Source: Catenulispora acidiphila DSM 44928
GTDB lineage: Bacteria > Actinomycetota > Actinomycetes > Streptomycetales > Catenulisporaceae
Direction of reading: 5' to 3'
Length of the DNA stretch: 64,000 nt
NCBI RefSeq assembly: GCF_000024025.1
Contig: NC_013131.1
Coordinates: 3,410,001 to 3,474,000, forward strand
Shown: positions 5,676 to 63,791 of the stretch, in pieces
How positions within the stretch are numbered: position 1 is the stretch's first letter
How the letters are laid out: each line of letters begins with the position of its first letter
Notes under the pieces: generated by a model
What the model was told of the DNA's origin: nothing
The model's input: the letters and a program-made list of their open reading frames with translations, nothing else
Database searches by the model: none
Program-made: the position numbers and the translations under genes

Positions 5676-5958
5676 CTGCGTCCCCCCGCGTCAATGGATC
5701 GGCTCGAATGCTTGCTGCTGGTTCGGATTCTGGGTCTTGGCTTGAGTTCTGGGGCTTGGCTTAGATGTCTTGGCGTGGATACAGATCAGGCTACGTGCTT
5801 ATCCTGGCGCGCCGTCCGGTGTCCAGGAAACGCGGGGCTCCGTAGCTTCCCGGTAAAACTAGAACGTGTTACAGTTCCCGGCGGGAACCAGCGTGACGCG
5901 CGCCACGCTCGCGCGACGCGGGAATGAATCGCGTGGCACACTGGTTCGGAACGACGAA
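5676..5958. other. Intergenic region upstream of the FMN riboswitch
   Basis: This stretch holds the start-side flank of the kinase gene and the likely promoter of the rib operon. It has a TTGG/CTTGG-rich tract near 5725-5775 with imperfect direct repeats (GGCTTGAGTTCTGGGGCTTGG). It also carries GTGGATACAGATCA (5775-5788), the exact reverse complement of a 14-base unit found twice after ribBA. No convincing -35/-10 hexamers stand out. Confidence 0.4.
5775..5788 (-). repeat. Inverted distant copy of the 14-bp element found after ribBA
   Basis: GTGGATACAGATCA is the exact reverse complement of TGATCTGTATCCAC, which occurs twice in tandem at 8306-8333. The copies flank the riboswitch-ribE-ribBA segment in opposite orientation. 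Confidence 0.7.
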
Positions 5959-6094
5959 CGCGTGCTCCGGGGTCGGTGAAATTCCGAACCGGCGGTGACA
6001 GTCCGCGAACCGCTCATTCGCCTCGGCGAACGGGCGGCCGATCCGGTGGAATTCCGGGACCGACGGTTAAAGTCCGGATGGGAGGCTGCACGCG
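5959..6094 (+). promoter_or_regulatory. FMN riboswitch (RFN element) of the rib operon
   Basis: The conserved RFN core is visible: GGTCGGTGAAATTCCGAACC then GGCGGTGACAGTCCGCGAAC, and later GGTGGAATTCCGGGACCGAC then GGTTAAAGTCCGGATGGGAG. Helix P1 closes it: CGCGTGC (5959-5965) pairs with GCACGCG (6088-6094). FMN binding is known to lower expression of riboflavin genes. A 197-base expression platform follows to the ribE start at 6292. Within it CTCCC (6206-6210) could mask the ribE Shine-Dalgarno GGGAG (6281-6285), which suggests translational control. I see no U-tract terminator. The aptamer is certain; the mechanism is inferred. Confidence 0.95.
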
Positions 6095-6291
6095 ACGGGC
6101 GTGCCGCCTCGCTGTGTCCGCACAGCGCCCGGTGCGGACCACGTCCCGTCGCGGCGTTCGCGACGGCTGCCGCCGAGCTGGGCGGAGTGTGCCGTGGCGC
6201 GCCGCCTCCCTTGCCGCACCCCCCTTCCCGGAGTCCGGGTTCGACCGCGTGCCGACCGGCGCGCGGATGAGGCGGATTAGGGGAGCACACC

Positions 6292-61477: not shown

Positions 61478-62767
61478 CTACTTGGCGATGTCGGAGGCGA
61501 CGGTACCGGCCGCGTCATGCAACCACTGGCTTGTCGGCTGCTGACCGAAGACCACGGACTTCAGGTAGCCGTTGCGGAAGTCCTGCCACATGGTCACGCC
61601 GTTGGCGACGTTCGGGACCTCGACGGTGCGGGCCGCCTGCTGCGCGAACAGCGTGTATTCGGGGTGCGCGGTGAAGTAGGACGCGTAGGTACTCGGCAGG
61701 TCGCTGCGCAGCGGCATCTGGCCGGTCATACTCAGCAGCGTGCCGTCGTTGTCCTGGTCGGTGGCGAACTTCAGGAAGTCCCAGGCGGTCTGCCGGTTCT
61801 TGCACGCGGTGAACACCGAGACGGTCTTGGAGTCGGCGAAGGTGTGGATCTGGTCGGCCGGCATCCCGGCGGACGTCGGGACCGGTACCGCGCCCCAGTT
61901 CACCTTGCCGGCGTAGGACGCGATGGCCCACGGTCCGACGATCGCCATCGCCGACTTCTTGTCCGCGAACGCGTCGCCGTTGTACTTCTCCTTCGGCGCC
62001 TGGTTCTTGGCGTAGACACCGGACCAGAAGTCCGCGACGGCCTTCCCGGCGGCGTCGTCGAAGGTCGCCTTGCCGTTCGCCACCAGCGGCTGCCCGCCGC
62101 TCTGGGCGATGTAGAGCGGGTAGTAGTCGAACCAGTTCTGGTAGAACTCGTTGGTCGCCGCCGGTGCGATGGCGTACTGCGCGGCGCCGGAGCTGAGGAG
62201 TTTCTGTGCCGCGGCCTCGAAATCGGCGTACGTGGACAGCACCGGATGGTCCGGATCCAGTCCGGCGGCCTTGAACATGTCCTTGTTGTAGAAGATCATG
62301 ACCGGGTTGCTCTTCCACGGCAGCTGGTAGTACTTGCCATCAGTGCTCTTGTACTCGGCCGCGACAGTCGCACCGCTGCGTCCCTCGACGTAGGACACGC
62401 CATCGGCGAAGTCGTTCAAGGGCACCAGTCCGCCCTGCTTCACCCAGCCCGATATCGCCGACGGCGAGCCGTTGAACACCAGGCACGGCGCGTTCCCGGC
62501 GGCGATCGCGGCGGTGATGACCTCCTCGGAGCTGCTGCCCGCGGGGATCTCCTCGCCGGTGACCTGTTGGTCCGGGTGCGCCTTGTTCCACAGGGCGACG
62601 GTGGCTTTGCCCCAGGAGACTTCCTGGGCGTTGTTGGAGTACCAGATCTTGATCGGCCCGCTGCTGAGCTTTCCGCCGCCGGAGCCTCCGGAGCTGCATC
62701 CCGCCAGCGTGAGGGCCGTGCAGGCCAGCGCCGCGACGGCGGCGGTGAACGTGCGCAATCTCGCCAT
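61478..62767 (-). CDS. Sugar ABC transporter substrate-binding lipoprotein
   Basis: A 429-residue extracellular solute-binding protein (family 1). Its signal peptide ends in a lipobox (TALTLAGCSSGGSGGG), so Cys is lipidated and anchors it outside the membrane. The SBP fold is visible in IKIWYSNNAQEVSWGKATVA, LPWKSNPVMIFYNKDMFKAA, KKSAMAIVGPWAIASYAGKV and CKNRQTAWDFLKFATDQDND. ATG 62767 has GGGAGGAT upstream; a GTG/TTG-type earlier start is unlikely. First gene of the importer operon; no glycosidase gene is nearby, so the sugar is unknown. Confidence 0.94.
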   Translation of the reverse strand: MARLRTFTAAVAALACTALTLAGCSSGGSGGGKLSSGPIKIWYSNNAQEVSWGKATVALWNKAHPDQQVTGEEIPAGSSSEEVITAAIAAGNAPCLVFNGSPSAISGWVKQGGLVPLNDFADGVSYVEGRSGATVAAEYKSTDGKYYQLPWKSNPVMIFYNKDMFKAAGLDPDHPVLSTYADFEAAAQKLLSSGAAQYAIAPAATNEFYQNWFDYYPLYIAQSGGQPLVANGKATFDDAAGKAVADFWSGVYAKNQAPKEKYNGDAFADKKSAMAIVGPWAIASYAGKVNWGAVPVPTSAGMPADQIHTFADSKTVSVFTACKNRQTAWDFLKFATDQDNDGTLLSMTGQMPLRSDLPSTYASYFTAHPEYTLFAQQAARTVEVPNVANGVTMWQDFRNGYLKSVVFGQQPTSQWLHDAAGTVASDIAK

Positions 62768-62924
62768 GGCTGATCCTCCCGAATCCGGCGTAAGGGGTTC
62801 CAAAGCCCCTTCCCCGGAGTATGGGAATCAAAGCTCGAAGTCGTGTCCAGTCGGGATTTGCGCACCCCGGCGCGGCGGCGAATTCACTCGCCGCCGCGCC
62901 GCGTGTCCGGCTACTGTGGTGCTC
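62768..62924. promoter_or_regulatory. Control region of the sugar importer with two hairpins
   Basis: AAGGGGTT-CCAA-AGCCCCTT (62792-62811) is an 8-bp inverted repeat with one G-U, 25 bases upstream of the binding-protein start. It could be a repressor operator or a 5'-leader hairpin. A second perfect hairpin, CGCGGCGGCGA (62871-62881) with TCGCCGCCGCG (62888-62898), lies further up, next to the tRNA-like RNA. Confidence 0.5.
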
Positions 62925-63076
62925 GGCGCCCGGTGCGTAGGCAGCGGATACTTCTTGGATCTGAAGGTTGCCGGTTCGAGTCCGGCCCTCCTCCTTCACC
63001 GGAGGCGGTAGCTCAATGGGCAGAGCATCAGACCGGCTATGCCGGGGTCCCCGCAGCCGATTTGATCTCGGGCGCC
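62925..63076 (+). ncRNA. Circularly permuted tRNA-like RNA (or two tRNA halves in reversed order)
   Basis: The 3' half comes first: TCTGA (62960-62964), AGGTT, T-arm GCCGG-TTCGAGT-CCGGC (62970-62986), 3' acceptor CCTCCTC (62987-62993), C73. After TTCACC comes the 5' half: G, acceptor GAGGCGG (63002-63008), TA, D-arm GCTC-AATGGGCA-GAGC (63011-63026), A, TCAGA (63028-63032). Between halves: acceptor 6/7 pairs plus G(-1):C73, anticodon stem 5/5. The anticodon loop is where the permutation opens; flanking TTGG (62955-62958) and CCGG (63033-63036) extend that stem past a bulged A. Outer GGCGCCCG (62925-62932) pairs fully with CGGGCGCC (63069-63076). No anticodon can be assigned. Alternatives: tandem tRNA copies deleted at both ends, or att-site debris. 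The tRNA arms are certain; function is not. Confidence 0.7.
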
Positions 63077-63092
63077 TTATTCGTTCCCTGTT

Positions 63093-63665
63093 TTACTTCA
63101 CCACCTCGTAATCGACGAACACGATGTTCTCGCCGACGCTCCGGGTGCTGATGAGCCGCAGCGGCTTCACGCCGCCGGCCGTCCCGAACAGGCGCGCTCC
63201 CTCGCCGACCACGACCGGGATCACCATGAGCCGGATCTCGTCGACGAGGTCCTGCTCGATCAGCGCGTGGACGAGCTGGAAGCTCGCGTACACCAGCACC
63301 TCGCCGTCGATCTCCTGCTTGATCCGGGCGACCTCGGCGGGCAGGTCGGCGCTGACGACCGTCGCGTTGGACCAGGCGGCGCTCTCCAAGCTGCCGGAGA
63401 CGACGTACTTCGGCATCGCGTTCAGCTTCTCCGCCCACGCGCCGTCCCGCCCCAGCCAGCGCGAGGCGAACCACTCGTCGGTCGTGCGCCCCAGCAGCAA
63501 CGCCTCGCCGGCCAGCGCCTCCGCGGCGAACGCCGCCGCCCACGGCGCCCGGTCCTGTCCCACGACCTGGTCGAACCAGCCGCCGAGGGCGAAGCCCTCC
63601 TTGCCGTCCGGGTCCTGCACGACGCCGTCGAGCGAGGCGTTGGTGCTGACGATGATCTTTCCCAT
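63093..63665 (-). CDS. RibD C-terminal-domain (DHFR-like) reductase family protein
   Basis: A 190-residue DHFR-fold protein: GKIIVSTNASLDGVVQDPDG, ALLLGRTTDEWFASRW, MPKYVVSGSLESAAWSNATV, LVYASFQLVHALIEQDLVDE and RLMVIPVVVGEGARLF. It matches stand-alone RibD_C/YyaP-like reductases, not the bifunctional riboflavin enzyme, as it lacks the deaminase zinc domain and stands far from the rib operon. ATG 63665 has GGGGA upstream. Cofactor is probably NADPH; substrate unknown. Divergent from the ECF gene at the window end. Confidence 0.9.
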   Translation of the reverse strand: MGKIIVSTNASLDGVVQDPDGKEGFALGGWFDQVVGQDRAPWAAAFAAEALAGEALLLGRTTDEWFASRWLGRDGAWAEKLNAMPKYVVSGSLESAAWSNATVVSADLPAEVARIKQEIDGEVLVYASFQLVHALIEQDLVDEIRLMVIPVVVGEGARLFGTAGGVKPLRLISTRSVGENIVFVDYEVVK

Positions 63666-63719: not shown

Positions 63720-63791
63720 TGCAGACACCGCGGCGGGCGCCCGATTGGGCGCCCCCGGACCGCCCAATCCGTGCGCCGCGAGGTGTCTGCA
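63720..63791. promoter_or_regulatory. Nested inverted repeats between divergent genes
   Basis: Outer arms TGCAGACACC (63720-63729) and GGTGTCTGCA (63782-63791) pair fully, continuing with GCGGCG/CGCCGC past a 2-base bulge. Inside, GGGCGCCC-GATT-GGGCGCCC (63735-63754) forms an 8-bp hairpin. Alternatively GATTGGGCG (63743-63751) pairs with CGCCCAATC (63761-63769). The two inner folds exclude each other. It lies between the reductase and ECF sigma starts. Confidence 0.75.

Follow-up and report, generated by a model that had tools for sequence, protein, structure and literature searches.

The stretch of DNA that we analyzed (the window: 64,000 nucleotides of the Catenulispora acidiphila DSM 44928 genome) carries an element of about 152 nt that we identify, with a probability of roughly 0.88, as a YrlA-type Y RNA, a mimic of tRNA with circularly permuted halves that has Rsr as its partner protein and most likely loads onto it in trans. 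Direct reading of positions 62925-63076 on the plus strand gives a tRNA 3' half, a 6-nt loop and a tRNA 5' half, in this order, inside an 8-bp outer stem. The kind of RNA appears to be one that is already known; what looks odd here is its location, megabases away from the rsr gene, and an extra hairpin. The initial annotation of this region had recognized the permuted order and offered three explanations for it: a tRNA mimic, a permuted tRNA gene needing end-joining, or the remnant of two tandem tRNAs. The first of these is the one that our analysis favors. The accompanying statement that no such case was known in bacteria was mistaken, given that YrlA constitutes an Rfam family (RF02553) and that the structure of a bacterial Y RNA has been solved (6CU1).

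The features of the element and of related RNAs are listed in Table 1. The element lies on the plus strand between two minus-strand genes, and is perhaps, as far as the sequence indicates, in its own transcription unit. A sigma-70 scan detected no promoter or sigma-70 consensus upstream of it; a TAC[TCG]GT box was found by eye at the same place in eight of nine genus copies, including the window copy (the exception is L016), and the RNA is predicted to start at 62925. Within the acceptor hairpin, the 3' strand (62987-62993) is followed by the loop TTCACC (62995-63000) and the 5' strand (63002-63008), with six of seven pairs formed (the other is C.T) and an additional pair between G63001 and C62994; TA follows the 5' strand, before the D-arm. 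These acceptor pairs, the complete anticodon stem, the six-base join and the outer helix between 62925-62932 and 63069-63076, with eight of eight pairs, had all been described previously and were confirmed by our reading. What had been overlooked is a Ro-type helix, GGC(A)GCGG/CCGC(A)GCC, which pairs 62940-62947 with 63051-63058, together with the conserved sequence GGTGCG.AGGC...TACTTC; the Ro-type stem is conserved as GGTGCG.AGGC...GCGG.TACTTC on its 5' side and as CCGC.GCC on its 3' side.

Table 1. Positions of the element's parts, its neighbors and the DUF7873-linked RNAs (window coordinates unless a locus is named; A1 and A2 are the alignments of 8 and 23 sequences described in the text).
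Feature	Position	Strand	Basis or remark
Extracellular solute-binding protein gene	ORF 61478-62803	-	neighbor on one side; 61478-62770 scanned
-10-like TACTGT	62912-62917	+	upstream sequences compared by eye
Basal stem 5' strand, GGCGCCCG	62925-62932	+	invariant in the eight A1 copies
Conserved Ro-type segment: GGC(A)GCGG strand (62940-62947) and ATACTTCT	62933-62955	+	identity to the rsr-linked Y RNA, compensatory pairs
Anticodon-stem 3' strand, TCTGA	62960-62964	+	3/5 pairs compensatory in eight copies
Variable loop, AGGTT	62965-62969	+	direct reading
T-arm, GCCGG-TTCGAGT-CCGGC	62970-62986	+	sequence; loop T51, T52, C53 and A55 invariant in A1
Acceptor hairpin, strand order reversed relative to tRNA	62987-63008	+	89.3% of cells paired, 2 pairs compensatory
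D-arm, GCTC...GAGC	63011-63026	+	stem invariant in A1 and A2
Anticodon-stem 5' strand, TCAGA	63028-63032	+	pairs with 62960-62964, 5/5
Extra hairpin, CCGGC-TAT-GCCGG	63033-63045	+	94.9% of cells paired, the window hairpin being one column off so that 2 of its 5 cells (the only unpaired ones) score unpaired; 1 pair compensatory (CG to UA)
Ro-type helix 3' strand, CCGCAGCC	63051-63058	+	A1 and A2 pair counts
Basal stem 3' strand, CGGGCGCC, then TTATTCGTT	63069-63076	+	direct reading, A1 alignment
RibD C-terminal-domain protein gene	63093-63665	-	neighbor on the other side
DUF7873-linked RNA	L040:7177-7447, L039:5538-5817	-	
DUF7873-linked RNA, further loci	L086-L098, L123-L127, L129, L130		
DUF7873-linked RNA, phages	L119:2239-2648, L120:2239-2746, L121:2239-2772, L122 from ~2236		

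The anticodon arm had also been proposed to be extended by a TTGG/CCGG helix. Pairing at these positions is possible in 95.8% of 24 cells, but not one compensatory change was observed and CCGG also fits the extra hairpin, and this extension was set aside. The loop of the extra hairpin is TTCG in the seven aligned relatives as opposed to the 3-nt TAT of the window copy, and none of the other 15 rows of A2 has the hairpin, two same-genus copies (L036 and L037) included. ARAGORN found no intact tRNA in the whole window. Elsewhere in the window, a perfect 10-bp inverted repeat (TGCAGACACC/GGTGTCTGCA, 63720-63729 and 63782-63791) sits between the RibD-like gene and an ORF from about 63819 that reads as sigma-factor-like, and an FMN riboswitch scores 94.3 bits at 5958-6095 (+).

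We aligned the window copy with seven relatives identified by blastn using MAFFT (alignment A1), excluding L011, whose RNA is identical to that of L010, the copy in G003 and the second copy in G006. The permuted order is conserved throughout A1. When the alignment was compared with the written-down structure, 97.5% of cells paired and seven of 41 pairs were changed on both sides; none of 500 shuffles reached either value, and pairing fell to 32-51% when the partner strand was slid along the alignment. RNAalifold, run unaided, returned the same helices and four more pairs. In a second, wider alignment (A2; 23 sequences, 29 pairs counted, with the acceptor and the extra hairpin outside the count), 98.6% of cells paired and 17 pairs were compensatory. 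A2 excludes L011 and also L020, L026, L028, L029, L031-L035 and L030:1255-1388 (insert or other tRNA type), as well as rows found by the 5' motif that were chance matches or not tRNA-like. The Ro-type helix paired in 100% of its A2 cells, with five of seven pairs compensatory. The basal stem paired in 97.8%, with changes on both sides in seven of eight pairs, although this pairing is partly by construction because the rows outside A1 were chosen by the 5' motif and at least seven of eight basal pairs. The initial annotation had named covariation in the acceptor hairpin and the outer helix as the mark of a functional RNA. A covariance model was built from the eight A1 copies (R1) and searched, and covariation is present in both places (two acceptor pairs in A1 and seven of the eight outer pairs in A2).

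We also folded single sequences. The minimum-energy fold of the window sequence contains neither T-arm nor D-arm, while being more stable than 198 of 200 shuffles (2/200 as good); the L009 fold has no D-arm and no Ro-type stem (3/200 shuffles as good), and the L031 fold has no T-arm. Because these folds do not show the tRNA-like domain, they were set aside as evidence. As for the genomic setting, seven of the eight loci L009-L016 keep at least one neighbor of the window element, i.e. the solute-binding protein or the RibD-like gene, and at L012 neither was found within the available flanks.

What we regard as decisive for a Y RNA, judging from sequence, is the Ro-type stem that the element shares with a short Y RNA linked to rsr. 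Positions 62929-62958, which contain the Ro-type 5' strand, are 97% identical over 30 nt to C1:362130-362159. This segment falls within a 74-nt short Y RNA (C1:362091-362164, minus strand) that has no tRNA-like domain and lies just upstream of rsr. The rsr gene is the single TROVE match in the genome (10,467,782 bases); its product scores 36.9 bits with TROVE (cut-off 23) over 62 residues and 16 bits with VWA_2, which is under the cut-off of that family, and resembles the solved TROVE-domain proteins 9l5y and 9kop (E 3.5e-28).

The association with rsr extends to the family as a whole. Among 148 genomes of the class, the R1 RNA was found in 21 and TROVE in 18, all 18 of which are within the 21. 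In all 17 of the other TROVE genomes, the best R1 match precedes a TROVE match by 329-2704 bases on the same strand (17/17 versus 3/130; Fisher p 1.5e-19). R1 matches without TROVE occur in G024, G154 and G022; that of G024 was rejected as an artefact of tandem tRNA genes, and that of G154 sits behind a DUF7873 gene. In G014, no R1 match is listed near the second TROVE match. The 5' motif gave a similar picture: among the matches listed (148 copies on 120 named contigs), 128 are followed within 3.5 kb, on the same strand, by an rsr-like gene, 11 are within 2 kb of the end of the locus and nine have no rsr-like gene. Catenulispora orthologues are among the listed copies without such a gene (L204 from C. 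pinistramenti and L209 from a Catenulisporales MAG; L208 is C. pinisilvae).

The Rfam score is less telling. RF02553 matches the element over its full length with 36.4 bits (E 1.6e-6 in 401 bases and 1e-5 in the whole genome), which does not reach the gathering score of 69 bits, and an Rfam scan at gathering score reports no YrlA in the window. The gathering score was missed by all 20 actinobacterial loci tested, including those adjacent to rsr (best 56.2), and 17 of the 20 show a sub-threshold match at E up to 0.01. When E values as high as 10 are admitted, RF02553 has matches in 13 of 14 control genomes, none of them above the cut-off. The top match in the C. acidiphila genome is not the window element but an RNA behind a DUF7873 gene (37.0 bits). 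Moreover, tandem tRNA genes are a false-positive trap in searches for YrlA, because the 3' half of one gene followed by the 5' half of its neighbor resembles a permuted tRNA: two intact tandem tRNA genes in G024 (L116:1480-1630, minus strand; Asn by anticodon as read) reach 44.5 bits with RF02553 and 52.8 bits with R1. Given that the RF02553 score alone is weak, the identification rests on the shared stem, the association of R1 with TROVE, the linkage of the motif to rsr and the covariation, all of which are observed directly.

The window copy is not encoded near rsr, the distance between the two being 3.11 Mb. In our judgement, linkage to rsr is usual rather than defining for a YrlA-type Y RNA. 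In the draft relatives, the element copy and the TROVE matches are likewise on different contigs. TROVE matches were obtained in each of the 10 genus genomes searched. A pattern search places the Ro-type motif upstream of 11 of 15 genus TROVE loci; in some the RNA has a tRNA head (L081) and in others it is short. The four matches without an upstream motif by pattern are L072-L075, and R1 adds a weak upstream match at L073 (28.5 bits); the genomes of these four also have a Y-linked TROVE match, so Rsr paralogues are possible. Beside the YrlA copy in G006, L037:1624-1800 (-) contains a Y RNA stem whose long insert does not look like a tRNA on reading. A tentative proposal, which we consider possible though somewhat less probable than otherwise, is that the Ro system of Catenulispora has been split: rsr would keep a Y RNA of its own (here bare and short), and the tRNA-mimic Y RNA with its extra hairpin would be made elsewhere under separate control, such that Rsr could be switched between plain and tRNA-headed forms and the tRNA head would be an exchangeable cassette.

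Y RNAs of several sorts also occur together. Many relatives of family f2 (Streptomyces where the contigs match) have Y RNA arrays before rsr, in which two tRNA-like Y RNAs are accompanied by a short one (about 75 nt). Based on motif counts and reading, the 148 motif copies among the matches listed comprise 53 of class I, 30 class II-like, 27 short ones and seven without a T-loop; a further 31 among these matches have a T-loop with another D-arm, some of them resembling Glu, Gln or Asp tRNAs by eye. Class II-like (Leu/Ser-like) heads are found at L031:1501-1648, L034:1379-1530 (-), L144 and L145, Leu-like heads with an apparent long variable arm are among the types read, and other heads of rsr-linked Y RNAs appear by eye to be Glu-like (L147, L162), Gln-like (L141, L150) or Asp-like (L133, L191). 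This resemblance to varied tRNA types suggests that the head may repeatedly have been re-founded from different cellular tRNAs. However, assigning the mimics to their nearest tRNA left 66 of 89 ambiguous at a margin of 4, with 20 skipped, so that the head-swap idea is a lead.

If the element were instead a circularly permuted tRNA gene like those of red algae and some archaea, its transcript would be made circular or joined at its ends and then trimmed into a functional tRNA. Both halves are complete, their order is permuted and the T- and D-arms are canonical, all of which agrees with such a gene; yet the eight aligned copies have no anticodon loop, the anticodon stem opening into the conserved Ro-type helix and the 8-bp basal stem, the discriminator is not followed directly by CCA, and in eight of eight copies a short loop caps the acceptor. 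The nearest of the compared tRNAs matches at just 50 of 66 positions. We therefore consider this explanation very unlikely. The comparison with the tRNAs of the genome, which the initial annotation had called for, gave no recent parent among 50 ARAGORN predictions (loci for 30 of 58 tRNA places), the best being tRNA-Phe with those 50 positions; against 56 distinct tRNAs, the nearest to the element was tRNA-Lys, with tRNA-Asn close behind. It is hardly credible that the element is what a double deletion left of two tandem tRNA genes. Tandem tRNA genes can mimic a permuted tRNA, as the G024 pair does, but here eight relatives keep the permuted element, seven of them with at least one neighboring gene, and ARAGORN found no tRNA in any of the eight relatives' loci (2.9-3.2 kb) or in the window, so that intact tandem tRNAs at the same site, which had been expected of such a remnant, were seen in none of the eight. 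No complete tRNA halves were seen beyond the permuted core either. The compensatory changes in seven of the 41 pairs of the permuted fold, and the conservation of the outer stem and the Ro-type helix, neither of which is part of a tRNA, also argue against debris.

It is also conceivable, if improbable, that the element is a Y RNA by descent that is now independent of Rsr, for instance acting as a free decoy of tRNA nucleases or of enzymes that handle tRNA. The element is unlinked from rsr, which has a short Y RNA of its own, and Salmonella YrlA has been suggested to be a competitive inhibitor of an anticodon nuclease (PMC7790460). Nevertheless, the Ro-type stem has been kept with compensatory changes, its 5' strand is nearly identical to that of the rsr-linked RNA, and TROVE matches are present in every one of the genus genomes searched.

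We thus prefer the reading of a YrlA-type Y RNA that partners Rsr, for which the following mechanism is proposed. The two ends of the element would form the basal stem, with the conserved Ro-type helix as the binding site of Rsr, a ring protein (bacterial Ro60, with a TROVE domain), and the middle would form a circularly permuted tRNA-like domain, the anticodon stem of which opens into the Ro-binding stem. Loading onto Rsr would most likely occur in trans, given that the mimic is apart from rsr in the genus and that rsr here keeps a short Y RNA upstream. On Rsr, the tRNA-like head may be seen by tRNA enzymes (TruB, Dus) and may tether or gate PNPase for the decay of structured RNA, as described for YrlA. 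In YrlA, the stem tethers Rsr, and PNPase is bound by the tRNA-like domain, which DusA/TruB modify (PMC8394870). Rsr attaches to Yrl RNAs at their lower stem (PMC4726728), and the solved bacterial Y RNA (6CU1) superposes on tRNA as a circular permutation (PMC11472068). Given its homology to YrlA, the element should act likewise, and we infer that it is transcribed, binds Rsr and tethers PNPase.

Outside the window, we observed an RNA that is about 300 nt long, contains two permuted tRNA-like domains in tandem and lies downstream of DUF7873 (PF25283) genes. It occurs in actinobacteria, in phages of Arthrobacter, Gordonia and Rhodococcus and, by eye, in the Pseudanabaena phage Pam2; a search of phages gave matches in 73 records. 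Two T-loops are present in 23 of the 24 such loci that were read, with one T-loop in L128. In an alignment of 22 of 25 loci, three of them from phages (L092, a near-copy, L128 and L122 were excluded), 97.8% of cells paired and 21 of 31 pairs were compensatory, and none of 500 shuffles was as high on either measure. Some copies have, by eye, CCA after the discriminator. An Rfam scan of eight of these loci found no family above its cut-off at the RNA, and sub-threshold YrlA matches in six. Our literature search found no paper on DUF7873; it likewise found none that joins Y RNA with Streptomyces and Ro60, or permuted tRNA with bacterial Y RNA.

In permuted (two-piece) tmRNA (RF04321), the acceptor halves are in reversed order, a feature that the element shares; a search with RF04321 gave nothing at gathering score across the window, or within 62800-63200 when E values as high as 5 were admitted. 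The permuted tRNA genes of red and green algae and some archaea yield a working tRNA with an anticodon. They too place the 3' half before the 5' half, whereas the window element has no anticodon loop. Bacteria do, then, carry inside-out tRNAs, as Y RNAs, and the gene of a tRNA-mimic Y RNA can lie far from rsr; this unlinked arrangement opens a test of Rsr loading in trans with different Y RNAs. The closest known systems are two. With the short rsr-linked Y RNA of the same genome, the element shares the type of basal stem and the Ro-type segment, although the short RNA is less than half as long, is without a tRNA-like domain and is directly upstream of rsr. With YrlA (RF02553; Salmonella 6CU1), it shares the circularly permuted tRNA-like domain, the T-arm, the closed acceptor hairpin, the D-arm and a stem made from the two ends of the RNA, and its relatives sit beside rsr; it differs from YrlA in the 3.1 Mb that separate the window copy from rsr, in the extra hairpin at the junction and in its score of 36.4 against 69 bits.
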